DNA of 47,219 nt from Betaproteobacteria bacterium. GTDB lineage: Bacteria > Pseudomonadota > Gammaproteobacteria > Burkholderiales > SG8-41. The translations under genes and the position numbers were made by a program. How positions within the stretch are numbered: the stretch's first letter is position 1; every line of letters starts with the position of its first letter. The notes beneath the pieces were generated by a model. That model was not told where the DNA came from, searched no databases, and worked only from the letters and a program-made list of their open reading frames with translations. Where the stretch lies: NCBI GenBank assembly GCA_947486575.1, contig CANKUB010000022.1, positions 1 through 47,219 on the forward strand, written 5' to 3'. This document shows, in pieces, positions 2,108 to 37,434 of this stretch.

Positions 2108-3376
2108 TTAACGAATAGTCAGCTGCTGTTCCTGTGCACGGTGGCGCATATTTGCCAGCGCTACGCTGAGCATCACGCCAACAATGCATAAGGCACTAAT
2201 ACCCAGAAATCCCACCTTGAAAGATCCCGTGATGTCCTTGACCATTCCCAGCGAGTAAGCCGTAACCAGTCCGCCCAAATTCGCAAACAGATTGCTGAAG
2301 CCGATCGCGGTGCCCGCTGCACGTGGTCCCACTGCCTCCACCGGCACAAAATACAGCGGCCCGAAGTAAATCTGCACAAACACCGATCCGCATGCGATGA
2401 CTATCAGCAGCGCCGAAGTCGACTCCACCCATGTCAGCAGCGCGCAGGTGCACGCCAGCCCGACCAACGATGCGCCAATGATCAGCGACGGGCTTCTAAA
2501 CCGATCAGACAAATAGCCGCCCAGCGGGTTTGCCAGTGCCGAGAGTGCTGCGCTCATGGCGACCACAAAACCGACGGACTGTAACGAAAATCCCCGGTCG
2601 GCGATCAGCATCGATGGCAGCCAGAACACAAAACCCGTGACCGCGCTAAAGCGCACGATCTGAATCGCGCTGCACAACCACAACACTTTGCTATGCAGCA
2701 GGTGCACCGCTTCCTGCATGGCAAAGGGCCGCGCGCCCGCCTTTCGCGGTTTTTCACTGCCGAAGGTATAAAACAGAATTGCGCCACACGCGCCCGCCGC
2801 AGCGAAAAGCATGATTGCCATTCGCCATCCCAAGGCCACGGTAAGCGCCGGGCCAATCAGGGCGAGAATGATGTTGCCGGTGTAAGCGCCCAGCATATAC
2901 AGGCTCATCGCCATGGCACCTTGCCCCCGTGGGTACCATGACGCCAGCAGCGCCAGGCCAGGCGCGAACAATAGCGCTCGAAATGCGCCAGCCACAAACA
3001 GGACAGTCACCGCTGCCCAAAAGACATGAATCAGACCCACCGTCAAAGTCAGTATGGACCAACCCATCAGCCCAACAAAGAACAAGCGGCGCGGGCCATA
3101 ACGATCGGCGAGAAACCCGGCTGGAATCTGACCCAGGGCATAACTCAGTGTTGCCGCAACCGACAACATGCCAGCCTGCGCATAGCTGATATGCAAATCC
3201 TCGCGGATCAGCGGTAAAAAAAGCGCCAGGCCGATAAAGGTAAGGCTATGAAATGCCTGGCACACGAATACCAGCATGACATTGGTCAGGCGCTTTCGTG
3301 TAGCAGGGTCAGGTGACGCAATATCTACCGCGCCGCTGACGGGGTGGTGTGCAAGCAAACTTGCTGGATTGCGCAT
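2108..3376 (-). CDS. Major facilitator superfamily transporter
   Basis: This 422-residue inner-membrane protein has about 12 hydrophobic segments, after a polar N-terminal stretch of about 30 residues. The MFS loop 2-3 signature is seen as GFLADRYGPRR (around residue 88), and its relative GGYLSDRFRSP lies in the second half. A positively charged central loop (GSEKPRKAGARPF) separates the two six-helix bundles. The substrate cannot be read from the sequence; anion or organic-acid symporters of the ACS/D-galactonate type and general MFS exporters are both possible. It precedes fabI on the same strand. ATG at 3374-3376 is used; no strong ribosome site precedes it. The long gap to nrdD could carry its promoter. 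Confidence 0.85.
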   Translation of the reverse strand: MRNPASLLAHHPVSGAVDIASPDPATRKRLTNVMLVFVCQAFHSLTFIGLALFLPLIREDLHISYAQAGMLSVAATLSYALGQIPAGFLADRYGPRRLFFVGLMGWSILTLTVGLIHVFWAAVTVLFVAGAFRALLFAPGLALLASWYPRGQGAMAMSLYMLGAYTGNIILALIGPALTVALGWRMAIMLFAAAGACGAILFYTFGSEKPRKAGARPFAMQEAVHLLHSKVLWLCSAIQIVRFSAVTGFVFWLPSMLIADRGFSLQSVGFVVAMSAALSALANPLGGYLSDRFRSPSLIIGASLVGLACTCALLTWVESTSALLIVIACGSVFVQIYFGPLYFVPVEAVGPRAAGTAIGFSNLFANLGGLVTAYSLGMVKDITGSFKVGFLGISALCIVGVMLSVALANMRHRAQEQQLTIR

Positions 3377-3728
3377 TAGGGATCGACCGAGCGAGTTAAA
3401 TCAGCTTTTAGTCTATCGGCCCTCGCCTCTAAGAACTTTGATTTGCATTAAGAGCATCGATATGAAGTACCGAAATTTTAAACGGCATGATCTGCAAAGC
3501 TGTTCAAGAAAATTTACTGAGCGCGTCACATATCACAGAGGGTCGATAGCGCATACAGATGATTGCGCAGTTTTGACATTCAGGCGCGCTCACCAGCTGG
3601 CATTCTTGATTCGTATCAAGAAAAAAGAAAATACTCGCGTGCGAGTCCCAGAAACAGATTGATCACCACAAGATATGGGCCACAATCGCTAGACACCTAC
3701 AAACTATTGGGCAAGTGGGAGAGATTTC
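3377..3728. other. Divergent intergenic region between MFS gene and nrdD
   Basis: This 352-nt gap separates the divergent MFS gene and nrdD. It is AT-richer than the flanking genes. It holds a perfect FNR-type palindrome (3606-3619, listed separately) and a good nrdD ribosome site (GGGAGAG at 3718-3724). A plus-strand open frame through most of it has no ribosome site and no family resemblance and is not called. I saw no RNA gene in it. Confidence 0.6.
3606..3619. promoter_or_regulatory. FNR/DNR-type operator upstream of nrdD
   Basis: TTGATTCGTATCAA is a perfect match to the consensus TTGAT-N4-ATCAA. Its centre lies about 116 nt before the nrdD start, so a class II promoter would give a leader of roughly 75 nt. 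The oxygen-sensitive class III reductase downstream is a classic target of FNR-family control. The site alone cannot tell FNR/ANR from DNR. Confidence 0.8.
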
Positions 3729-5759
3729 ATGGAAGCACGCGTCACAGAGTTAGTGTCACTGCCATCACAGGTTATCAAGCGGAGCGGACGTTCAAGTTCA
3801 TTCGACGCCGGCAAAATATTGAAAGCGATATCCCGTGCGGGCGATGCCACATCGGAATACGCAATCGATGAAGCTCAACGTATTTCCGCCAGTGTGCTGC
3901 GTGTCATTGGGCACCGTTTCACGCAACGCGCGCCCTCTATCGAAGACATACAGGATATCGTCGAACAGCAATTGGCGGCGTCCGGCCACTTTAAAACGGC
4001 GCGGGCGTACATCGTGTATCGAGAACAACACAAGCACCTGCGTGAAGACAACAGGACACTGCTGGATGTTGAATCCTCCGTAAACGAATATCTCGATCAG
4101 CAAGACTGGCGCGTCAACGCCAATGCCAATCAAGGCTATTCGCTCGGCGGGCTGATTCTCAATATCGCTGGAAAAGTCACCGCCAACTACTGGCTTGACC
4201 ATGTCTACCCGCCGGAAGTTGGCGCGGCGCATCGCGAGGCGGATATTCACATTCACGATCTCGACATGCTGGCCGGTTATTGCGCCGGCTGGTCGCTGCG
4301 CACGCTTTTGGCCGAAGGACTCAATGGCGTGCCAGGCAAAGTGGAGTCGCGTCCGCCGAAACATCTGTCCAGTGCCGTTGGGCAAATCGTCAATTTTCTC
4401 GGCACACTGCAAAACGAATGGGCCGGCGCGCAGGCATTCAGTTCGTTCGACACCTACATGGCGCCTTTTGTGCGTAAAGACCGTTTGCCATACGCAGAAA
4501 TAAAGCAATGTATTCAAGAGCTTATATACAATCTCAATGTGCCGTCGCGGTGGGGCACGCAGACCCCGTTCACCAATCTGACGTTCGACTGGACTTGCCC
4601 CGACGACCTGCGCGACAACGTGCCGGTGATAGCTGGCGAAGAAATGCCATTCACCTATGGTGATCTCGAACCCGAAATGGAGATGATCAACCGCGCTTAT
4701 ATCGAAGTGATGATGGCGGGGGACGCCAAAGGGCGCGTATTCACATTCCCCATTCCCACCTATAACATCACGCGAGATTTTCCCTGGGATAGTCCGCTAG
4801 CTGATTTGCTGTTCGAGATGACCGCAAAATACGGCTTGCCGTACTTTCAGAATTTCATCAACTCCGACCTTCAGCCCAACATGGTGCGCTCGATGTGCTG
4901 CCGCTTGCAACTCGATCTGCGCGAGTTACTCAAACGCGGCAACGGTCTGTTTGGATCGGCTGAACAGACCGGCTCGCTCGGCGTCGTCACGCTCAATTGC
5001 GCGCGACTCGGTTTGATCTGCCGGGGTGACGAAGCTGCCTTGCTCAAGCGCACCAATCACCTGATTGATCTCGCACGCAACAGCCTCGAGATTAAACGCA
5101 AAGTCATCCAGCGTCACATGGACAACGGCCTGTTTCCGTACACCAAACGCTATCTGGGCACGCTGCGCAATCACTTTTCAACTATCGGCGTTAACGGCAT
5201 TAACGAGATGATCCGCAACTTCACTGACGATGCGCACGACATCACCAGCGAATGGGGGCACACCTTCGCCTGCCGCTTTCTCGATCACGTGCGCAGCCGC
5301 ATCGTAACCGTGCAAGAGGAGACGGGCCATATGTATAACCTCGAAGCAACGCCCGCCGAAGGCACTACCTACCGCTTTGCAAAAGAAGATCGCAAGCGTT
5401 ATCCCGGCATACTGCAGGCCGGCACCGATAACACACCGTACTACACCAATTCTTCGCAACTCCCGGTCGGCTTTACCGATGACCCCTTCGAAGCACTTGA
5501 ACGGCAAGAGCAACTGCAACGCAAGTACACCGGTGGCACCGTGCTGCACCTGTATATGAACGAACGTGTCAGTTCCGTCCATGCGTGCAAAACACTGGTG
5601 CGGCGATCATTGGAGCGATTTTCACTGCCTTATATCACCATCACGCCAACGTTCTCGATCTGCCCGCGCCACGGCTACCTGTCCGGCGAGCATCCCTACT
5701 GCCCGAAATGCGACGATGACCTCATCACCAAAAAATTACTTGAATTGCAAGCCGCTTAA
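3729..5759 (+). CDS. nrdD: Anaerobic ribonucleoside-triphosphate reductase, catalytic part (NrdD without glycyl-radical domain)
   Basis: NrdD reduces ribonucleotides to deoxyribonucleotides without oxygen, using a glycyl radical made by NrdG. This 676-residue protein has an N-terminal ATP-cone (from about residue 15, VIKRSGRSSSFDAGKI) and the class III barrel, including VNANANQGYSLGGL, DLDMLAGYCAGWS (active-site Cys), FNLNVPSRWGTQTPFTN-type and RSMCCRLQLD segments. It ends with a zinc-site tail ICPRHGYL...YCPKC. Canonical NrdD continues from here into the glycyl-radical loop. In this genome the frame stops at TAA 5757-5759, and that loop is on the next small gene, 15 nt later and in the same frame. 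The ATG at 3729 has GGGAGAG upstream. An FNR-type site lies in the promoter. Confidence 0.95.
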   Translation: MEARVTELVSLPSQVIKRSGRSSSFDAGKILKAISRAGDATSEYAIDEAQRISASVLRVIGHRFTQRAPSIEDIQDIVEQQLAASGHFKTARAYIVYREQHKHLREDNRTLLDVESSVNEYLDQQDWRVNANANQGYSLGGLILNIAGKVTANYWLDHVYPPEVGAAHREADIHIHDLDMLAGYCAGWSLRTLLAEGLNGVPGKVESRPPKHLSSAVGQIVNFLGTLQNEWAGAQAFSSFDTYMAPFVRKDRLPYAEIKQCIQELIYNLNVPSRWGTQTPFTNLTFDWTCPDDLRDNVPVIAGEEMPFTYGDLEPEMEMINRAYIEVMMAGDAKGRVFTFPIPTYNITRDFPWDSPLADLLFEMTAKYGLPYFQNFINSDLQPNMVRSMCCRLQLDLRELLKRGNGLFGSAEQTGSLGVVTLNCARLGLICRGDEAALLKRTNHLIDLARNSLEIKRKVIQRHMDNGLFPYTKRYLGTLRNHFSTIGVNGINEMIRNFTDDAHDITSEWGHTFACRFLDHVRSRIVTVQEETGHMYNLEATPAEGTTYRFAKEDRKRYPGILQAGTDNTPYYTNSSQLPVGFTDDPFEALERQEQLQRKYTGGTVLHLYMNERVSSVHACKTLVRRSLERFSLPYITITPTFSICPRHGYLSGEHPYCPKCDDDLITKKLLELQAA

Positions 5760-6669: not shown

Positions 6670-6697
6670 TTTGCATGAGGTCGAGCAGCAGTGCTTT

Positions 6698-6711
6698 TTG
6701 ATCTACATCAA
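6698..6711. promoter_or_regulatory. FNR/DNR-type operator upstream of the DNR-like regulator
   Basis: TTGATCTACATCAA is a perfect TTGAT-N4-ATCAA palindrome. It is centred 70 nt before the ATG at 6775, which would place a class II start site near 6746. It supports the later start of the regulator, because an upstream GTG frame would run through the operator. Autoregulation or control by an FNR homologue elsewhere is likely. Confidence 0.82.
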
Positions 6712-6774
6712 GCCTTACGTCACGGCAGCGTGGACAATGATCTGCGAGATGGATGCACGCCTCTCTCCGCCACA

Positions 6775-7467
6775 ATGCCCACTCCCACGCCGCCCACCGA
6801 ACACTTTCTAGCCCACGTGCCACTATTCCGCGAACTTCCCGGTGCCGATATTCAACGCATTGCAAGCAAGACGGTCGCCATTGATGCGCCACGCGGCACC
6901 GTACTGCTGCGCCGCGGCGACCCGTGCCGCGGATTTCACGTCATCGTATTTGGCCGGATAAAGCTGTCGCTGCAATCGCCGAAAGGCAGTGAAAAGGTGG
7001 TGGAGTTAATGGGTGCCGGCCAGAGTTTCGGCGAAGCCTTGATGTTTATCGAAGAACCCTATCTGGTGACTGCGGAGAGCGTCGACGACGCCAAGGTGCT
7101 GCATGTAGCCCGCGAAATTGTGTTTGCGGAAATCGACCGCGATCCGCGTTTCGCGCGCCGTATGCTGGCGGGGTTGAGCTGGCGTCTGCATCACCTGATG
7201 ATGGATGTCGAATCTTATACGCTGCGCTCTGGCACGCAGCGCGTCGTTGGATATTTGTTGCGCGACAGCGCTGAACGCAGTCCAGCCAATTCCCTCACCA
7301 TCCGTCTCGAAGCTACGAAAGGCGTCATCGCGTCGAGGCTCAATCTCACCCAGGAGCATTTTTCAAGAATTCTGCACCAGTTGATGGGAGCAGGGCTGAT
7401 CGAAATCAGCAGGCGGGAAATCAACGTTCCTGATATTCAGCGATTACTGCATCATGACATGGACTGA
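6775..7467 (+). CDS. dnr: CRP/FNR-family transcription regulator, DNR type
   Basis: This 230-residue regulator has an N-terminal cyclic-nucleotide-fold sensor domain (GTVLLRRGDPCRGFHVIVFGRIKL), a long dimer helix, and a C-terminal winged helix with recognition helix TQEHFSRILHQL. The E-x2-SR pattern is the one that reads TTGAT half-sites. The FNR cysteine cluster is absent: the called protein has only one Cys. It therefore should not be an iron-sulphur oxygen sensor. GQSFGEALMF is close to the equivalent segment in DNR, the haem-dependent NO sensor of denitrifiers. Together with neighbours nnrS, nar and the nitronate monooxygenase, this favours a nitrogen-oxide sensor. ATG 6775 is used because the FNR-type site lies just upstream. 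It could instead be another CRP/FNR subgroup; direct ligand evidence is lacking. Confidence 0.82.
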   Translation: MPTPTPPTEHFLAHVPLFRELPGADIQRIASKTVAIDAPRGTVLLRRGDPCRGFHVIVFGRIKLSLQSPKGSEKVVELMGAGQSFGEALMFIEEPYLVTAESVDDAKVLHVAREIVFAEIDRDPRFARRMLAGLSWRLHHLMMDVESYTLRSGTQRVVGYLLRDSAERSPANSLTIRLEATKGVIASRLNLTQEHFSRILHQLMGAGLIEISRREINVPDIQRLLHHDMD

Positions 7468-27689: not shown

Positions 27690-29123
27690 TCAGGCGTGCG
27701 CCAGCGTGTTGGCCGGATGCAGCGCCGGAATCAGCGCATCGAACGGACGTTGTCCAACCACTGTCTTCCAGATGTTCCATGCCATGATCAGCATGCCGGA
27801 AAAATAGAGCACGCCACCCAGCAACCGGATCATGTAGTACGGGTAGGTCGCTTTCACCGATTCAACAAAGGTGTAAGTCAGCGTGCCATCATCGTTCACC
27901 GCGCGCCACATCAAGCCCTGCATGACGCCGGCGATCCACATCGCAGCGATGTAAAGCACGATACCTATGGTGGCCACCCAAAAATGCAGCGTAATCGCCT
28001 TGATACTGTGCATTTCATTGCGGCCGAATACGCGTGGAATCATGTAGTACAGCGTACCTATCGACACCAACCCCACCCAGCCCAGTGCGCCGGAATGCAC
28101 ATGCCCCACGGTCCAGTCGGTGTAATGAGAGAGCGCGTTCACCGTCTTGATCGCCATCATCGGGCCTTCAAACGTGGACATGCCATAGAACGATAGCGAC
28201 ACCACCAGGAATTTCAGAATGGGGTCAGTACGCAGCTTGTGCCATGCGCCCGATAGCGTCATGATGCCGTTGATCATGCCACCCCAAGATGGGGCCAGCA
28301 GTATCAGGCTGAACACCATGCCCAGGGATTGCGCCCAATCCGGCAGCGCGGTGTAGTGCAAATGGTGCGGCCCCGCCCACATATACGTAAAAATCAGCGC
28401 CCAGAAGTGCACCACCGACAGCCGATAGGAATACACCGGACGTTCAGCCTGCTTGGGAATGAAGTAATACATCATCCCCAGAAAGCCGGCCGTCAGAAAA
28501 AAGCCCACGGCATTGTGTCCGTACCACCACTGAATCATGGCGTCCTGCACGCCCGCGTAAGCCGAATAGGACTTCCAGAACGTAACCGGAACCTCGGCAC
28601 TATTCACCAGGTGCAGCACGGCAACGGTCAAAATAAATGCGCCAAAAAACCAGTTGGCCACGTAAATATGCGGTGTTTTACGTTTGGCTAGCGTGCCGAA
28701 AAACACCACCGCATAGGACACCCAGACCAACGTAATCAGGATGTCGATGGGCCATTCCAGCTCGGCATATTCCTTGGCGCTGGTATAGCCTAGTGGCAAA
28801 GTAATGGCTGCCGCCATGATAACCACTTGCCAACCCCAGAACGTGAATGCGGCCAGGCTGCCGCAAAATAGCCGTACATGACAAGTACGCTGCGCCACAT
28901 AGTAAGAGCTGGCAAACAGTGCGCACCCGCCAAACGCAAAAATGACCGCGTTGGTGTGCAACGGACGTAGCCTCCCATACGATAGCCAAGGCGTCAGATT
29001 CAGCTCTGGCCAGATCAGTTGGGCGGCCAGTATCAGACCTACCAGCATGCCCACGATGCCCCACACCACAGCCATGATACTGAACTGTCGAACGACTTTA
29101 TAGTTATAGGTGTTGTCCTGCAT
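27690..29123 (-). CDS. ccoN: cbb3-type cytochrome c oxidase catalytic subunit CcoN
   Basis: CcoN reduces oxygen to water with high affinity at a haem b3-CuB centre and pumps protons. The 477-residue protein has twelve hydrophobic helices. It shows the invariant His residues: [12 protein letters not shown] (low-spin haem), [18 protein letters not shown] (CuB), [16 protein letters not shown] (CuB pair) and [16 protein letters not shown] (haem ligands). ATG 29121-29123 follows AGGGAGAT. The FNR-type site upstream fits its usual induction at low oxygen. Intact. Confidence 0.96.
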
Positions 29124-29381: not shown

Positions 29382-31874
29382 CTATTCGCGGCTTGCGGTA
29401 CGCTGCGGCTTGTCGCACAAACGTAACGCATTGCCGATGACCAGTAATGAAGAGGCCGACATGCCAATGGCTGCCACCAGTGGCGTAACTAGCCCCATCA
29501 CGGCCAGCGGCACGGCAATCACGTTGTAGGCAATAGCCCAGAAAAAATTCTGGTGAATAATCCGCAACGTGCGGCGGGAGATGCTGACCGCCGCCAGCAA
29601 GGGCTCGATATGGTCTGTCAGCAGCGTAACGTCAGCATTGAGCCGCGCCAACTCGGTGCCTGACGCCATGGCGACTGAGACCTGCGCCTGCGCAAGTAGC
29701 GGTGCGTCGTTTACACCGTCGCCAACGGCCGCGACAATGGCACCTTGCGCCTGCAGCTTGCGCACGTAGTCGAGCTTGTCTGCAGGGGCAGCATCGCCTG
29801 CATAAAAAGGGATACCCAATCGCGCTGCCACCCGTTTAACACAGGGTGTGCGGTCTCCCGAGAGCAAGTGAAGCTCCGCACCCTGCGCCGATAACGCTTC
29901 GACGACTTGCTTCGCATCGGGCCGCACGGCGTCTCCGAGCGTGAACAACGCCAGCCATTCGCCTTCGCTGCCTAAAGCTACGGTCGTTACGTCGTCACTC
30001 ACGAAGGACAATTCAATGGGTAACGGCAAGCCGGTCAAATCAGCGACAAAACCAGGCGAACCGGCACGCATGCGCTTGCCATCAATTACGCCCTCAACGC
30101 CTTGACCGGCGACATAGCGCAACTCGCCTGGTTGATATCGCGCGCAAGCCGGACCTGCGGCAACCAGAGCGCGGCCCACCGGATGTTCAGACGCGCCTTC
30201 GAGTGCAGCGGCCATCGCAATCACCGCTTCCTTGCTGCGGCCGCCTACCACCAACACGCCGATCAGGCTCATGCGCCCGCTGGTTATCGTGCCGGTCTTG
30301 TCAAATACAAAATGAGTGGATTTCGCCAGCGCTTCGAGTGCATGGCCGCGCGTAATCAGAATGCCCCGCCGCGACAGACTGCCAGTAGCAGCAGCCAGCG
30401 CAGCAGGGGTCGCCAGCGAGAGCGCGCAGGGGCAGGTCACTACCAGTAATGAAATGATCACTGGCAGCACGCGCTCCTTGTCGATAAACCACCACGCAGC
30501 GGCACTCACGGCAACCACCAGCAGCAGTGCGAATACAAAATGAGCTGCAGCACGGTCCGCCAGCGACGCCAAGTGCGGCTTGGCTTCCAGCGCGCGATCC
30601 ATCAGCCGCACAATTGCGGCTGCCACGGTCTGCTCTCCCGTACGTTCTATTCGCATAATCAGCGCACCCGAGCCATTGACCGACCCCGCGATAACGCTGT
30701 CACCGGTTCGCTTCACCAGCGGCATCGATTCGCCGGTCAGCAGTGCTTCATTGACGCTGCTAACGCCATCCACTACCACGCCGTCACCGGGCACCGGCGC
30801 GCCAGGCTTGATTTCGGCAAATTCGCCCCGGCGCAGCGTAGCGGCAGGAATTTCTTCCCGGAAATTCGTATCGGGATACTGCGGCAGTCGTGTGGCAATA
30901 GCCGGAACCAGCCGTGCCAGCCGGTCCTGTTCACGCGCCGCATAGGTACGCGCGTTCAGCTCCAGGAAGCGGGTACCCAGTAGCAGGAAGACAAACATGC
31001 AAACCGAATCGTAGTAGACGGCACCGGCGCCATTGGCCGTGGCCAGCACGCTGGCGGCAAACGCGGTCAATAGCCCGATGCTGACCGGCACATCCCGGTT
31101 CAGGGCGCGCGCTTTCAGCCCTCGCCACGCGCCGCGATAGAACGGCACGGCGGACCAAAACATCACCGGCAGCGTCAGCACCAGCCCTGCCCACTGCATC
31201 ATCCGTTCAATTCCCGCAGGCATGCCCCCTTCGGCAATGTAGACGGGAAACGCGTACATCATCACCTGCATCATGCCGAACGCAGCAACAAACAGACGCC
31301 ACAGCAGCGTGCGGCGTTCTCGTGCGAGCATGCTCTCAGAACGACCACTGTCGTACAGTTGGGCGTGATAGCCCAATGCAGCGATGGCCGCCAGTATCGC
31401 ACTCAACTTCACACGTGACGTATGCCATCTGACGCGTAACCGGTTTGCCCCGTAATGCATGGTGGCGGCACGGATGCCCTCCACCCTCAACAGGCGCTGC
31501 TCAATCAGCCACAAACACGCGGCACAGGTTACGCCTTCAATCAGCAGCGCGGCCTCGACCTGCTCAACATCGACAGCGTAGACATAACCTGCCTGCACTT
31601 CGGGCAGATCGAACTCAAGAAACGCCGGCGTCACGATATCGCCAGCGGCGGTAGGCGCAAAGGCACTGCGATTGCGATAGTACGAGCCCAGCCCTTGCCC
31701 CGCGATCAACCCGGCCACAGCCTGACATCCGAGGCAGCAGGTGTTGCGTGCGGCGCCATCCACCACTACCTTCCAGGTTTGTACACCCAGCGGCAATCCG
31801 CAATGAAAACAGGCGGCTGTGTTTGCGGCTTGCCCGGCCAAATGGCCGAACTCGCCGTATATTGCAACCGTCAT
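29382..31874 (-). CDS. ccoI: Copper-translocating P1B-type ATPase CcoI (FixI type)
   Basis: CcoI exports Cu(I) across the inner membrane for assembly of the cbb3 CuB site. This 830-residue protein has an N-terminal CXXC-type zinc-ribbon-like segment (CFHCGLP...CCLGC), a heavy-metal domain with GVTCAACLWLIEQ, eight hydrophobic helices with the CPC motif in VTCPCALSLATP, the phosphorylation site FDKTGTITSG, GASEHPVG and AVGDGVNDAPLLAQ. That order and the CPC site identify a P1B copper pump, and the neighbours identify the CcoI subtype. It is followed 2 nt later by ccoS. It starts at ATG 31872-31874, 16 nt after the ompW remnant. Confidence 0.94.
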   Translation of the reverse strand: MTVAIYGEFGHLAGQAANTAACFHCGLPLGVQTWKVVVDGAARNTCCLGCQAVAGLIAGQGLGSYYRNRSAFAPTAAGDIVTPAFLEFDLPEVQAGYVYAVDVEQVEAALLIEGVTCAACLWLIEQRLLRVEGIRAATMHYGANRLRVRWHTSRVKLSAILAAIAALGYHAQLYDSGRSESMLARERRTLLWRLFVAAFGMMQVMMYAFPVYIAEGGMPAGIERMMQWAGLVLTLPVMFWSAVPFYRGAWRGLKARALNRDVPVSIGLLTAFAASVLATANGAGAVYYDSVCMFVFLLLGTRFLELNARTYAAREQDRLARLVPAIATRLPQYPDTNFREEIPAATLRRGEFAEIKPGAPVPGDGVVVDGVSSVNEALLTGESMPLVKRTGDSVIAGSVNGSGALIMRIERTGEQTVAAAIVRLMDRALEAKPHLASLADRAAAHFVFALLLVVAVSAAAWWFIDKERVLPVIISLLVVTCPCALSLATPAALAAATGSLSRRGILITRGHALEALAKSTHFVFDKTGTITSGRMSLIGVLVVGGRSKEAVIAMAAALEGASEHPVGRALVAAGPACARYQPGELRYVAGQGVEGVIDGKRMRAGSPGFVADLTGLPLPIELSFVSDDVTTVALGSEGEWLALFTLGDAVRPDAKQVVEALSAQGAELHLLSGDRTPCVKRVAARLGIPFYAGDAAPADKLDYVRKLQAQGAIVAAVGDGVNDAPLLAQAQVSVAMASGTELARLNADVTLLTDHIEPLLAAVSISRRTLRIIHQNFFWAIAYNVIAVPLAVMGLVTPLVAAIGMSASSLLVIGNALRLCDKPQRTASRE

Positions 31875-31890
31875 GAATTGGACAATGGCA

Positions 31891-32039
31891 TCAGAACTTC
31901 ATGCCGAGTCCGACGCCATATACCACCGGGTTGATCATGAACTTTCGTCCGGACTGATATTGACTATGCGTGGCCGGCCCAGCCAATCACCTTGCGCCGC
32001 CGGAGCAAACACGCCCATACATTGCCGATGCATTTTCAT
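31891..32039 (-). pseudogene. Deletion remnant of an OmpW-family outer-membrane protein gene
   Basis: On the minus strand, AGAAGGA followed by ATGAAAATG at 32031-32039 opens a frame of 34 codons ending at 31935. Its middle, GVFAPAAQGDWLGR, looks like the end of a signal peptide plus the first strand of an OmpW barrel. It then reads PRIVNISPDESS and stops. Overlapping that stop in another frame is MINPVVYGVGLGMKF, then a stop (31891-31893), a typical OmpW C-terminus with final Phe. The roughly 170 barrel residues normally between are absent. I read this as a gene collapsed by deletion and frameshift, with its promoter kept: an FNR-type site lies 57 nt upstream, as known for ompW genes of other proteobacteria. 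The 34-codon frame could still be translated. The family assignment rests on short matches only. Confidence 0.5.
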
Positions 32040-32095
32040 TCCTTCTGTATGTGAAAAACGCAAAGGAATGCTATGCAATGTCGGACAACACGTGG

Positions 32096-32109
32096 TTGAC
32101 TTAAATCAA
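32096..32109. promoter_or_regulatory. FNR/DNR-type operator upstream of the ompW remnant and ccoI
   Basis: TTGACTTAAATCAA has one change from consensus. Its centre lies 63-69 nt before the remnant's two possible ATGs, with the ribosome site after it. With no other obvious promoter before ccoI, the operon ccoI-ccoS may now be transcribed from this site through the dead ompW leader. Confidence 0.65.
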
Positions 32110-32257
32110 AGCGCCTGCGGATCATAAATCCAATAAAGCGCCACTGACAAATGACTTCTGTTACTCATAGCGTGCCGCACACGATATCCGTTCGCGCCAA
32201 GACTTGAGTCAGCACAAACGAAAAGCATAAATAACTAAATAAAAACAATAGGTTAAA

Positions 32258-34759
32258 TCACTTTTTCGCATCGCCGTGAAGTCTGAACAAGATGATCATT
32301 GCCACCCCGGCGCCCCCTGTAAGCAACGCCATCAATAGAGCGCCTGGTGCCAGCGGTGCAAAACGAAACAGTTCCGCCACAGGCCCTACATACAACGACG
32401 CACCGAGTGCCATCAGTGTACCCAGCACAATCCACCACAGCGCCGGATTCGGCTGTGTGAACATCATGGCAAGGGACTTTCCCTTGCCCATTTCCTGACC
32501 CCTTCCCTTTCCATCCCCGCAATGCAAAAAAATCAACGCCAGATTGCCAAACACAATCGCTGCAAATCCCAGCGCGCGCGCCTCACCTTCGCTGCGCCCC
32601 TGCATCAGCGACCAGCCGTAAGCCAGACATACCGGCAACAACACGGCCACGCCCGCCAGCAAACTTGCACCGACGGTGCGAGCATCAAACAAGGGCTGCG
32701 CAGGATCACGCGGCGGTTGTGTCATGGCATCGGCATCACCGGTCTCTGCCTCAAACACAATGGAACACGCCGGATCAATAATGAATTCCAGAAACACCAC
32801 GTGCACCGGAAACAGCAGCAGCGGCCAGCCGAATGCCAGCGGCAGAAACGCCATGCCCACGGTCGGAACATGCACGGCAATGATGTAACACATGGCATTG
32901 CGTATGTTGCGGTAGATTCTGCGTCCCAGCCGCACGGTTTCGACGATAGCGCCGAAGTCATCGTTGATCAGCACCAGTGACGACGCCTCGCGCGCCACAT
33001 CCGTACCACGCAACCCCATCGCCACGCCGATGTGGGCGGCCTTCAGTGCGGGCGCGTCGTTTACGCCATCCCCCGTCATCGCCACCACTTCGCCATCGGC
33101 CTTGTATGCCCGCACCAGCCGCAACTTTTGATCTGGCGTAATCCGTGCGTAGACCTGTATTTGTTTCGCCGCTTCCGCCAACGCGGCATCGCTCATAATG
33201 GAGATAGCAGCACCCGTCAGCGCCCCATTGGTGACCGCTATGCCCGCCTGACGCGCAATGGCAAGTGCAGTGCCGGGATGGTCACCCGTAATCATCACTA
33301 CGCGTATACCCGCGCGCCGACACTCTGCCACCGCTGTGGGCACGGATGCCCTCAGTGGGTCCGCCAGCGCCACAAAGCCCAGCCAGCGAAACGGATACTG
33401 CGTTGGTTCTGTCAGCCAATCCGTATGCCACTCGGTATGGGCTGCCGCCAACAAGCGCAGACCGCGCTCTGCGGCTAGCGCTACTTCCTTCATCGCCGCC
33501 GCGCGCGCTTCCGCGTCCAGGGCGCACAGTGCCAGCACGGTTTCCGGCGCACCTTTTATAGCCACCCGCTGTTCGCCCTTTGGCGAACCCCAGCCGTGGC
33601 AGATGGCAAGAAATCCCGGATGCAGCGGGTAGTCCGCTTCCAGCCGCCACGTGCGCCGCAAGCCGGTGACCTCAGGCGCAATCTCACCCGCCGCCGCAAG
33701 AATCGCGCGCTCCATGGGATCAAAGGGATCCACCTCGCACGCCAGCGCTGCCGCCGTCATCAATTCCACCGACAGACTATCGGCTTTGCGCCATACGCCC
33801 TGGCAAAACACTTCTTCGACACGCATCTGATTTTCAGTCAACGTACCGGTTTTGTCGACACACAGAACAGTGGTGGCGCCCAGCATTTCCACCGCCGGAA
33901 TACGGCGGGTCAACACTCCATGGCGGCCAATACGCCACGCGCCCAGCGCCAGAAACACCGTGAGCACCAGCGGAAACTCTTCGGGCAGAATGGCCATCGC
34001 CAGCGTCAGACCTGCCAGCACGCCACCCAGCCAATCGCCGCGCAGCAACGCATACGACACCGCCAGCACCACACACAGCGCAACGGCAATCGACGCGATC
34101 CAGCGCACCACGCGCGCGGTTTCAGTCTGCAAACCGGTCTTGCCGCTCTCAATCGTGGCAAGGGACTGCCCGATGCCACCCAGCGAAGTGCGACTGCCGG
34201 TGGCAAAAATTTCTGCACGTCCCTGCCCTTTGACCACCAGCGTGCCGGAAAATACCTGCCCGCTGCGCGCGCCCGCTGCATCGACCTTCTTTTCCAGCGG
34301 CACAGATTCGCCTGTGAGCAGCGATTCGTCTACGAACAGCTCTTTCGCCTCCAGCAGCACGGCATCGGCCGGCACCCGGTCACCCTCGGACAATATCAGC
34401 AGATCACCACGCACTGCCGCCGCGCCCGCGATACGCTGCGCCACGCCATCGCGCACGACGTGCGCGCGGGGGCTGGATAAATCACGCAGGGCTTCGAGCG
34501 CACGCTCGGTTCTGCGCTCCTGCACTATCGTAATGCCCATCACCACCAGCACGGAAACTGCCAGCACCAGCGCCTCGCGCACATCGCCGAGCACCAGATA
34601 AATTGCCGCACCGCCCAGCAGCAACAAAAACATGGGCTCACGCACGACTTCCAATGCAATCGCAAGCGTGTTCCTGCTGCGCGCAGCAGGCAGCGAATTC
34701 GCCCCCTCAACCAGCAAGCGCCGGGCCGCTTCGACACTGGTGAGGCCGCTGGTGCTCAC
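32258..34759 (-). CDS. P-type cation-transporting ATPase (P2-like), ion unknown
   Basis: This 833-residue P-type ATPase has the N-terminal cation-ATPase domain (LTSVEAARRLLVEGANSLP), the actuator loop (DESLLTGESVPLEKKV), the phosphorylation site DKTGTLTENQ and the hinge TGDGVNDAPALKAAHIGVAMG. It belongs to the P2 (calcium/sodium pump-like) branch and has no heavy-metal domain or CPC motif. The helix-4 ion motif reads PEEFP, not PEGLP, and helix 6 reads FLEFIIDP where calcium pumps have NLVTD-like residues. The ion is therefore uncertain. The start is GTG 34757-34759, overlapping the stop of the upstream synthetase gene by 1 nt, so the two are coupled. Its C-terminal part has about six helices. 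The gap to ccoI holds the FNR-type site and ompW remnant. Confidence 0.88.
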   Translation of the reverse strand: MSTSGLTSVEAARRLLVEGANSLPAARSRNTLAIALEVVREPMFLLLLGGAAIYLVLGDVREALVLAVSVLVVMGITIVQERRTERALEALRDLSSPRAHVVRDGVAQRIAGAAAVRGDLLILSEGDRVPADAVLLEAKELFVDESLLTGESVPLEKKVDAAGARSGQVFSGTLVVKGQGRAEIFATGSRTSLGGIGQSLATIESGKTGLQTETARVVRWIASIAVALCVVLAVSYALLRGDWLGGVLAGLTLAMAILPEEFPLVLTVFLALGAWRIGRHGVLTRRIPAVEMLGATTVLCVDKTGTLTENQMRVEEVFCQGVWRKADSLSVELMTAAALACEVDPFDPMERAILAAAGEIAPEVTGLRRTWRLEADYPLHPGFLAICHGWGSPKGEQRVAIKGAPETVLALCALDAEARAAAMKEVALAAERGLRLLAAAHTEWHTDWLTEPTQYPFRWLGFVALADPLRASVPTAVAECRRAGIRVVMITGDHPGTALAIARQAGIAVTNGALTGAAISIMSDAALAEAAKQIQVYARITPDQKLRLVRAYKADGEVVAMTGDGVNDAPALKAAHIGVAMGLRGTDVAREASSLVLINDDFGAIVETVRLGRRIYRNIRNAMCYIIAVHVPTVGMAFLPLAFGWPLLLFPVHVVFLEFIIDPACSIVFEAETGDADAMTQPPRDPAQPLFDARTVGASLLAGVAVLLPVCLAYGWSLMQGRSEGEARALGFAAIVFGNLALIFLHCGDGKGRGQEMGKGKSLAMMFTQPNPALWWIVLGTLMALGASLYVGPVAELFRFAPLAPGALLMALLTGGAGVAMIILFRLHGDAKK

Positions 34760-37434
34760 TACAGCAGACTGGGCGGCGGCTGGCTTGATACAAGCGGCAA
34801 TGTCAGTTGCACGACGCCCACATCATTGTCATACGCTAGTTTGAATTCCAGTTCACGTGCCAGCGTCAGCATACCTACGTTACCACGCAGCGCTGCGCCG
34901 ATGAGCAAACCAGTGCCACGCGCCCTGGCATATTGTATGATTTTTTTCATCAGCAACGAGCCGAGGCCGCGTCCCTTAAGGTCGGATCGCACCAGTATCG
35001 CGAACTCCGCCTTGATATTGTCGGGGTCGGCAATGGCCCGCACCACGCCCCAGGTTTCCGCAGTGGGTTTGCCATCATCCACGCTGGCGATGAACGCCAT
35101 TTCGCGGTCATAGTCAATTTGCGTGAATCGTGCGATCTGGTTATGCGACATCACACGTACGGCATGAAAAAAACGCAGCCGCAAATCGTCCGCATCGACG
35201 CGCTGCAGAAATGCCTGATGCTGCGGCTCATCCTCCGGACGTATCGGCCGCAGCACAACATCGCGGCTCAGAAGGGTTACGCGCTCTTCCAATTCACCCG
35301 GATAGGGGCGGATGGCCAGACGCTGTGCACCCGATTGCACTGGTTGGGCAACACGGATGCGCGCATCCAGCGCAACCACACCAGCCTCGTCAACCAGCAG
35401 TGGGTTAATATCAATTTCCGTGATGGCTGCCACGTCCATCACCAATTGCGATACCTGAACCAGCACGCGTTGCAGCGCTTCGCGATCAGCGGGCGGGCGG
35501 TCGCGATAGCCATCGAGCAGGCGCGACACGCGGGTACGTGAAATGACTTCGGCAGCCAGCAGGCTGTTCAGTGGCGGCAGCGCCACCGCGCGATCAGCAA
35601 CAACTTCAACCGCTACGCCACCCTGTCCGAACAGGATGACGGGGCCAAACACGGCATCCACGGCAGCGCCGACGATCACCTCGTGCGCTTTGGGCCTGAT
35701 CACCATTTGCTGCACCATGTAACCCGCAAGCTGCGCCTGCGGCGCACGTTCACGCACACGTTGCGCCATTGCTGTTGCAGCATGCTTTACTTCGTCCGCA
35801 TTTACGAGATTCAGCGCCACGCCACCCACATCAGACTTGTGTGTAATCTGCGGCGAAATAATCTTTAGCGCTACAGGAAAACCGATTTCTGCTGCCACGC
35901 GCGCGGCATCTTCAATGCCGACAGCACTGCCGGTGCTTACCACAGGTATGCCGTAGGCACTGAACACCTGGCGTACCTCCGCTTCTGTAAGCCACTCGCG
36001 CCCCGCGTGCGCGGCGCTGCCCACCAGATCAAGCACGGCCACCGAATCGGGCGCAGAACTTGCGGCCAACGACGGTGGCGTTTGCATCAACAGTTGCTGA
36101 TTGCTGCGGTAGGTAGCCAACTGCAGAAACGCGCTCACTGCCTGTTCCGGCGTTTCGTAACAGGGTATGCCAGCGGCCTCGAATATCTGCTTCGCCTCGG
36201 CGACCGCACCCGCGCCCAGCCAGCACGCAAGCACGCGTTTGCCTTTGGCAATCGGCGAACAGGCGCGCGCAATGTCAGCAGCAGGCACGATGGCGGTGGG
36301 CACGTGAATGAACAGTGTCGCGTCGCTGCCGTCATCCTCAAGCAACGCGTGCAGTGCCGCGACATAGCGCGCGACCGGCGCATCACCGATGATGTCCACC
36401 GGATTACCATGCGACCAGGTGGCAGGCAGCGCCGCATTGAGTCGCTGCAGCGTAGCTTCCGAAAACGTTGCCAAGCGCCCGCCGCGCAGCGAAATCGCAT
36501 CTGCCGCCATCACGCCCGGACCGCCGCCGTTGGTGATGATAGCAAGCCGGTTGCCATCAACGGGCTGCGCGCGAGCCAGGGTTTCCACGGCATCAAACAA
36601 CTCCTGAATGGTATCGACGCGCAGCAGACCTGCTCGACGCAGAGCAGCGTCATACACCGCGTCCGACCCTGCCAGCGCGCCGGTATGCGATGCCGCAGCA
36701 CGAGCGCCCTCGGGCGCTCGCCCCGCTTTCACTACCAGCACCGGTTTGTTGCGTGCTGCCGCTCGTGCGGCGGACATGAATTTTCGCGCAGCTGTAATCG
36801 ATTCGATGTATAGCAGAATGGCGTTGGTAGACGCATCACTCGCCAGATAGTCCAGTACATCCCCGAAATCCACATCAGTCGCTTCGCCCAGCGATATAAA
36901 GTGTGAAAAGCCGATGCCGCGTGATTTTGCCCAATCGAGGACCGCCGTGGTGAGTCCGCCCGATTGCGAGACAAATGCGAGATTGCCCTTCAGCGCAGAA
37001 GTGTGTGCAAAGCTTGCATTGAGCCCGATACCGGGCACCAGAAGTCCTACGCAATTCGGCCCGAGTATGCGCAGCAAGTGCGGCCGCGCGGCATCGCACA
37101 TGGCTTTCCTGATCGACTTATCCAGCCCGCCGCTCAACACCACCGCTGCGCGCGTTCCTCGTGCACCCAACGAGCTGATTAACGCTGGTACCGTCGCTGC
37201 AGGCGTTGCGATTACTGCGAGATCCGGCGTTTGCGGTAAATCCTCCACACTTGCATAAGCGGGCTGGCCTGCGACGTTCGCGTGTGCCGGATTCACGGCA
37301 TAGATGTGGCCCGTAAAACCACCCGCGACGATATTGCGCATCACCGTAGCGCCCACGCTGCCCGCGCGATCAGACGCGCCGATCACCGCAATCGATTTCG
37401 GGCGGAACAAAAATTCCAGGTTACGGGTGCTCAT
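34759..37434 (-). CDS. NDP-forming acyl-CoA synthetase fused to a GNAT acetyltransferase
   Basis: This 891-residue fusion has an N-terminal CoA-binding domain (PKSIAVIGASDRAGSVG), succinyl-CoA-synthetase-like domains with the phospho-His segment ASHTGALAGSD (around residue 250), an ATP-grasp domain (FPVALKIISPQITHKSDVGGV, DINPLLVDEAG) and a C-terminal GNAT domain (from about residue 740) with acetyl-CoA loop DLKGRGLGSLLM. This architecture is that of the Pat/PatZ (YfiQ) protein lysine acetyltransferases, in which the synthetase part often senses or binds acyl-CoA. The His is present, so catalytic ligase activity is not excluded. It is followed by the P-type ATPase with 1-nt overlap. An FNR-type site lies about 92 nt upstream. 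It could acetylate metabolic enzymes such as acetyl-CoA synthetase under low oxygen; this is inference. Confidence 0.9.
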   Translation of the reverse strand: MSTRNLEFLFRPKSIAVIGASDRAGSVGATVMRNIVAGGFTGHIYAVNPAHANVAGQPAYASVEDLPQTPDLAVIATPAATVPALISSLGARGTRAAVVLSGGLDKSIRKAMCDAARPHLLRILGPNCVGLLVPGIGLNASFAHTSALKGNLAFVSQSGGLTTAVLDWAKSRGIGFSHFISLGEATDVDFGDVLDYLASDASTNAILLYIESITAARKFMSAARAAARNKPVLVVKAGRAPEGARAAASHTGALAGSDAVYDAALRRAGLLRVDTIQELFDAVETLARAQPVDGNRLAIITNGGGPGVMAADAISLRGGRLATFSEATLQRLNAALPATWSHGNPVDIIGDAPVARYVAALHALLEDDGSDATLFIHVPTAIVPAADIARACSPIAKGKRVLACWLGAGAVAEAKQIFEAAGIPCYETPEQAVSAFLQLATYRSNQQLLMQTPPSLAASSAPDSVAVLDLVGSAAHAGREWLTEAEVRQVFSAYGIPVVSTGSAVGIEDAARVAAEIGFPVALKIISPQITHKSDVGGVALNLVNADEVKHAATAMAQRVRERAPQAQLAGYMVQQMVIRPKAHEVIVGAAVDAVFGPVILFGQGGVAVEVVADRAVALPPLNSLLAAEVISRTRVSRLLDGYRDRPPADREALQRVLVQVSQLVMDVAAITEIDINPLLVDEAGVVALDARIRVAQPVQSGAQRLAIRPYPGELEERVTLLSRDVVLRPIRPEDEPQHQAFLQRVDADDLRLRFFHAVRVMSHNQIARFTQIDYDREMAFIASVDDGKPTAETWGVVRAIADPDNIKAEFAILVRSDLKGRGLGSLLMKKIIQYARARGTGLLIGAALRGNVGMLTLARELEFKLAYDNDVGVVQLTLPLVSSQPPPSLL

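Follow-up and report, generated by a model that had tools for sequence, protein, structure and literature searches.

A probable deletion relic of ompW behind an FNR-type promoter upstream of ccoI in a betaproteobacterium

Upstream of ccoI in a betaproteobacterial contig (GenBank CANKUB010000022.1; the whole stretch of 47,219 nucleotides analysed here is called the window), a sequence-only reading had noticed an FNR-type site, a ribosome site, a start codon, an OmpW-like N-terminal piece and an out-of-frame OmpW-like C-terminus, with the barrel missing between them. It proposed a collapsed ompW that keeps its promoter and ribosome site, and suggested that the deletion may have put ccoI under the ompW promoter, or that a 34-codon frame may survive as a leader peptide or small protein. 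Here we ask whether the stretch is a remnant of ompW, and how the loss bears on the control of ccoI. OmpW is an Fnr target in Escherichia coli, Rhodobacter sphaeroides and Herbaspirillum (PMC4886647, PMC2908626, PMC5934665), and Herbaspirillum and Sphingopyxis have ompW in the neighbourhood of cbb3 genes (PMC5934665, PMC7713065). Our literature search found no paper in which ompW and ccoI appear together and, within the extracts available, no report of an ompW relic before ccoI.

Elements and OmpW identity of the relic

All of the elements were located where the sequence-only reading had placed them, on the minus strand and inside 220 nt. An FNR-type site of the ompW promoter, TTGATTTAAGTCAA (32096..32109), has one mismatch to TTGATNNNNATCAA. 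It is followed at 22 nt, a class II spacing, by a putative −10 element, TAGCAT (32068..32073), and then by AGAAGGA (32040..32046), the ribosome site of the former ompW as judged by Shine-Dalgarno duplex energies. The 34-codon frame (31935..32039; ATG at 32039, TGA ending at 31935) encodes a shortened signal peptide and the OmpW residues AAQGDWLGRPRIVNISPDESS, and stops at the junction of a 421-nt barrel deletion. Initiation is likelier at its second ATG (32033), with a duplex of −5.0 kcal/mol versus −4.1 kcal/mol for the first. Alignment with the ompW genes of two congeners, G013 and G001, places the junction at 31936..31937, in the sequence ATGATCA (TGATCATGA on the plus strand). Via the ATGA at this junction, the frame overlaps a 15-codon frame, MINPVVYGVGLGMKF (31891..31938), which represents the OmpW C-terminus and closes with the native ompW TGA; the TGCC following the native stop codon is retained as well. 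The −10 element and a deletion in the signal peptide are additional to the features noticed earlier.

The relic ends 16 nt before the ATG (31874) of ccoI, which is intact (29382..31874, minus strand). Its product scores above the cut-offs of the ATPase-cat_bd, HMA and copper P-type ATPase models and cbb3 genes adjoin it, with ccoN downstream (27690-29123), identifying it as CcoI/FixI, the copper P1B-type ATPase for cbb3 oxidase assembly. On the other side of the relic, a second P-type ATPase gene (32258-34759), closest to calcium-pump models but under their cut-offs, stands between the relic and an 891-codon gene (34759-37434); in G001, ccoI comes directly after the counterpart of this 891-codon gene. 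An AT-rich stretch before the relic (32226-32258) has copies of 88-93% identity at three other places in the same genome and in several congeners, which marks it as a small dispersed element.

The window was searched with a profile made from 8 OmpW proteins that related genomes encode. The two relic pieces were the top two matches, at 17.8 and 13.6 bits, in the right order and on one strand. The next-best match anywhere in the window reached 1.6 bits, and the best scores on 10 dinucleotide shuffles of the window were 2.4-5.5 bits. With OmpW proteins of relatives as tblastn queries, the relic was matched at an E value of 9.5e-9, compared with 0.015 for the best reversed query. The 3' piece aligned to the ompW tails of relatives with a score of 36, the shuffle maximum being 15 (0/500 as good). 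The profile search, whose failure had been named as a refutation, supports OmpW similarity with a family-specific profile; stock Pfam and NCBIfam models give no match to the 34-aa frame. With no Pfam match (PF03922, the OmpW family) for this frame and none in its own genome, the stretch does not encode a working OmpW. No OmpW match was found elsewhere in that genome (5.35 Mb, 98% complete), and of the 41 genomes searched, its own included, 10 have such a match. As the OmpW pieces are in order on one strand and a relative has the gene intact at this position, the stretch is identified as an ompW pseudogene formed by deletion.

Intact, shortened and lost ompW before ccoI

The intact form is seen in G013 (locus L048, also L063), where an FNR site, TTGATTTAAATCAA, and TATCAT at equal spacing precede a 197-aa ompW, followed by 16 nt and ccoI. 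The product of this gene matches the Pfam OmpW model at 145.8 bits. Counted on the aligned sequences, the 421 nt of barrel are missing from the window relative to G013, and an additional 13 codons (39 nt) of signal peptide are missing relative to the ompW of G001. The latter genome, the nearest sister, has no ompW before ccoI and an intact one on another contig, with an FNR site, TTGATTTACGTCAA, in the corresponding position before it. Its 282-nt space before ccoI holds no ompW debris clearly beyond chance: shuffles scored as well in 23/500 cases for the 3' end, in 204/300 and 173/300 for two ompW genes, and in 13/300 for the window relic, the last signal being carried by the FNR site itself. 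This space contains a 60-codon frame (L060 3811-3993) that has a good ribosome site and no resemblance to OmpW; 7 nt separate its end from ccoI. In G010, a hemerythrin-domain gene (Pfam; L061 3345-3956) stands between FNR site and ccoI, in the place that ompW takes in G013; a look-alike occupies this position in G012 (L062 about 3342-3950), the Pfam domain match coming from the L061 gene. Among the six genomes of the genus with ccoI, ompW is intact before ccoI in G013 only.

A broader sample comprised 80 ccoI loci from public genomes. A full ompW lies directly upstream of ccoI on the same strand at 24/80 loci and is divergent at 4/80; in these four gammaproteobacterial loci (L115, L127, L128 and L134) an FNR-like site lies 100-170 nt before the ccoI match. 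The direct comparison with a congener that keeps ompW before ccoI, G013, bears out the proposal of a collapsed ompW with its promoter and ribosome site kept. Intact FNR-ompW-ccoI units of uncultured betaproteobacteria (L063, which is G013, L065-L068, L070-L074 and L077) share with the window the site, the −10 spacing, the gene order and the intergenic length, but their barrel is whole whereas that of the window is gone. Within the wider clade to which the window belongs, 11 intact loci have an FNR site, and in these the gap between ompW and ccoI is 10-19 nt. In the CcoI tree the window groups with G013 in one clade. Because the sister clade is intact in 10/11, ompW before ccoI is likely the ancestral state. 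Five loci titled Bordetella parapertussis group (L062, L064, L066, L067 and L126) are placed by the tree among uncultured betaproteobacteria, most of them within the wider clade of the window; this label looks wrong.

A second relic was found within the same family. In the genus coded g7, ompW is intact at 13/14 of the ccoI loci fetched, and the fourteenth, L075 (= G019, JAIETP010000003.1), has an FNR site, TAGCAT, GGAG and ATG, and then only a stretch from the end of ompW, GGCGTCGGGATGAAGTT, before ccoI (0/500 shuffles as good). It resembles the window in having the FNR site, TAGCAT and a ribosome site ahead of the last ompW codons; however, it is a separate deletion, in another clade whose sisters are intact. 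By sequence comparison, the L075 relic is of the same build as that of the window and arose separately.

Debris was sought at 52 loci and in the window, the 28 loci that have a complete OmpW close by, in line at 24 and divergent at 4, being excluded, and was counted at a tblastn E of 2e-6 or better (best reversed query 0.015). Ten of the 52 other loci carry ompW debris before ccoI, all in the Thiobacillus clade of the CcoI tree and mostly consisting of the 3' half of the gene. As no FNR-like site (up to 2 mismatches) occurs within 1.1 kb before ccoI at any of the ten, and as mostly the 3' half is left, their build differs from that of the window relic. Nor do they represent ten independent events, because much of the debris is shared by descent, and two of the loci (L129 and L102) belong to a single MAG. 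Weak matches with E above 1e-5 (L109, L113, L094, L124, L135 and others) were left uncounted; that of L124 is on the wrong strand, at a noise-level E of 0.001. Across L094-L135, one OmpW segment (around DIAVTKNGYINLDVKKIWIDT) persists as debris in many loci, which are mixed with intact ompW on the tree, and in L112 one frame continues from the debris into ccoI. When intact and relic rows only are considered, the CcoI tree, a quick build in which many inner Thiobacillus-clade branches are weak, has 8 label changes, of which at least 3 are forced by well-supported branches. The state has therefore changed more than once, and the tree indicates that ompW before ccoI was lost more than once in related bacteria.

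The FNR promoter and the control of ccoI

We examined the promoter that the relic retains. A TANNAT element lies 22 nt past the FNR site in 10/11 intact FNR-ompW-ccoI promoters (one off by 1 nt), in L075 and before the ompW of G001. In the window, the FNR site and −10 element have class II spacing, with the TTGATNNNNATCAA-type site centred about 41.5 before a transcription start predicted from sequence at about 32061. The window contains 8 FNR-like sites versus 0.23 expected (3606, 6698, 21062, 21150, 23738, 29204, 32096 and 37520, spanning 3606-37533), and a Crp/FNR-family gene at 6679-7467; from these it looks like a low-oxygen respiration island. The same genome encodes a Crp/FNR protein with a CX2CX5C cysteine motif and an ETVSR helix, which we take to be FNR-like.

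Given the observed homology and order of the pieces, the deletions, the conserved promoter geometry, the intact relatives and the FNR-like protein, we assign a probability of about 85% to the following reading: the stretch is the in-place relic of the first gene in an ancestral FNR-controlled ompW-ccoI unit, two deletions removed that gene, and the class II FNR promoter that was kept would still transcribe ccoI. The ancestor would have had ompW first and ccoI second in one FNR-controlled transcription unit. The signal peptide would then have lost about 39 nt and the barrel 421 nt; this would have destroyed ompW, leaving the promoter, the ribosome site and the 3' end. At low oxygen, FNR would bind at about −41.5 and ccoI would be transcribed from the former ompW promoter, with a leader of about 190 nt now and about 650 before the deletion. 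We infer that this promoter is functional and the sole driver of ccoI. The suggestion that the deletion placed ccoI under the ompW promoter is not supported, as G013 and the 24 in-line loci already have ompW directly upstream of ccoI. As ccoI already stood behind the ompW promoter in the intact form, the deletion recruited no promoter and merely shortened the leader.

Known systems show partial likenesses. The Escherichia coli ompW promoter has an FNR-type site before ompW, which the window shares, and low-oxygen induction; its FNR sites lie at −81.5 and −126.5 and are not class II, whereas the window spacing is class II (PMC4886647). The ompW1 gene of Herbaspirillum seropedicae is near cbb3 genes, as the former ompW of the window was, and is Fnr-regulated (PMC5934665). 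The extracts on these two systems describe no ompW-ccoI unit, and in the window ompW itself is deleted (PMC4886647, PMC5934665). In Sphingopyxis granuli, ompW lies beside ccoN with a class II Fnr site; an Fnr site ties it to cbb3 genes, as the FNR-type site would in the window, but it is divergent from ccoN, whereas the window ompW stood in line before ccoI (PMC7713065).

Alternative readings and implications

An artefact is very improbable. The exact relic is known from a single metagenome-assembled genome, a draft of 282 contigs, and faulty assembly could in principle hide an intact ompW at this locus in the living cell; yet the locus shows two distinct lesions, nowhere else in the genome is the relic (31891-32109) matched, and the assembly has no other OmpW match. 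We give as little credence to the 34-codon frame being a real small gene, a leader peptide or small protein under selection. The frame is open and has a ribosome site, and its residues GDWLGRPRIVNISPDESS are still OmpW-like. However, the core of the signal is deleted, and the frame is missing from all 5 further genomes of the genus that have ccoI. This comparison, suggested at the outset as a test for a short frame conserved without a barrel, leaves the deletion relic standing, and the leader-peptide proposal is unsupported, all the more so as the path to ccoI that the frame offers is no better than that from most random deletions (74%, see below).

A doubtful possibility is that ribosomes load at the ompW ribosome site, read 32-34 codons, restart at ATGA, read 15 codons to the old stop and are thereby delivered to ccoI. 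Shine-Dalgarno pairing at ccoI is near nil in the window (0.6 kcal/mol), G013 (0.3) and L075 (0.2), consistent with a ccoI lacking its own ribosome site. At ompW, 11 intact loci give −5.5 to −8.0 kcal/mol, and the pairing in the relic is weaker at either ATG. Frame analysis indicates that both relics permit passage to ccoI via stop and restart: two frames overlap by ATGA at the window junction, and in L075 a 16-codon frame from the ompW ribosome site closes with an ATGA overlapping the start of ccoI. The 60-codon frame of G001 likewise ends close to ccoI behind a ribosome site. By contrast, when the intact G013 ompW was subjected to random deletions, 14,767/20,000 (74%) left a path that reaches ccoI, 1,202 of them by relay, and L064, L069 and L126 start ccoI with neither a ribosome site nor an upstream frame. 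Since such a path also arises in 74% of random deletions, its presence does not point to selection, and selection for such a relay was considered and dropped. It seems similarly doubtful that ompW was repeatedly gutted with its promoter, ribosome site and last codons kept as a working leader that brings FNR control and translating ribosomes to ccoI.

The deletion relic in the window is, on sequence grounds, an ordinary deletion pseudogene in a promoter-keeping unit, set apart by recurrent loss at one place, before ccoI. The results suggest that such a unit can lose OmpW repeatedly and still retain its FNR site. OmpW is therefore probably not needed for CcoI or for cbb3 assembly, though both genes stood in one unit. 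The series of intact, shortened and lost ompW and its replacement by a hemerythrin-domain gene behind the FNR site offers a natural set for testing the role of OmpW there, and for asking how a downstream gene keeps its expression as the first gene decays.
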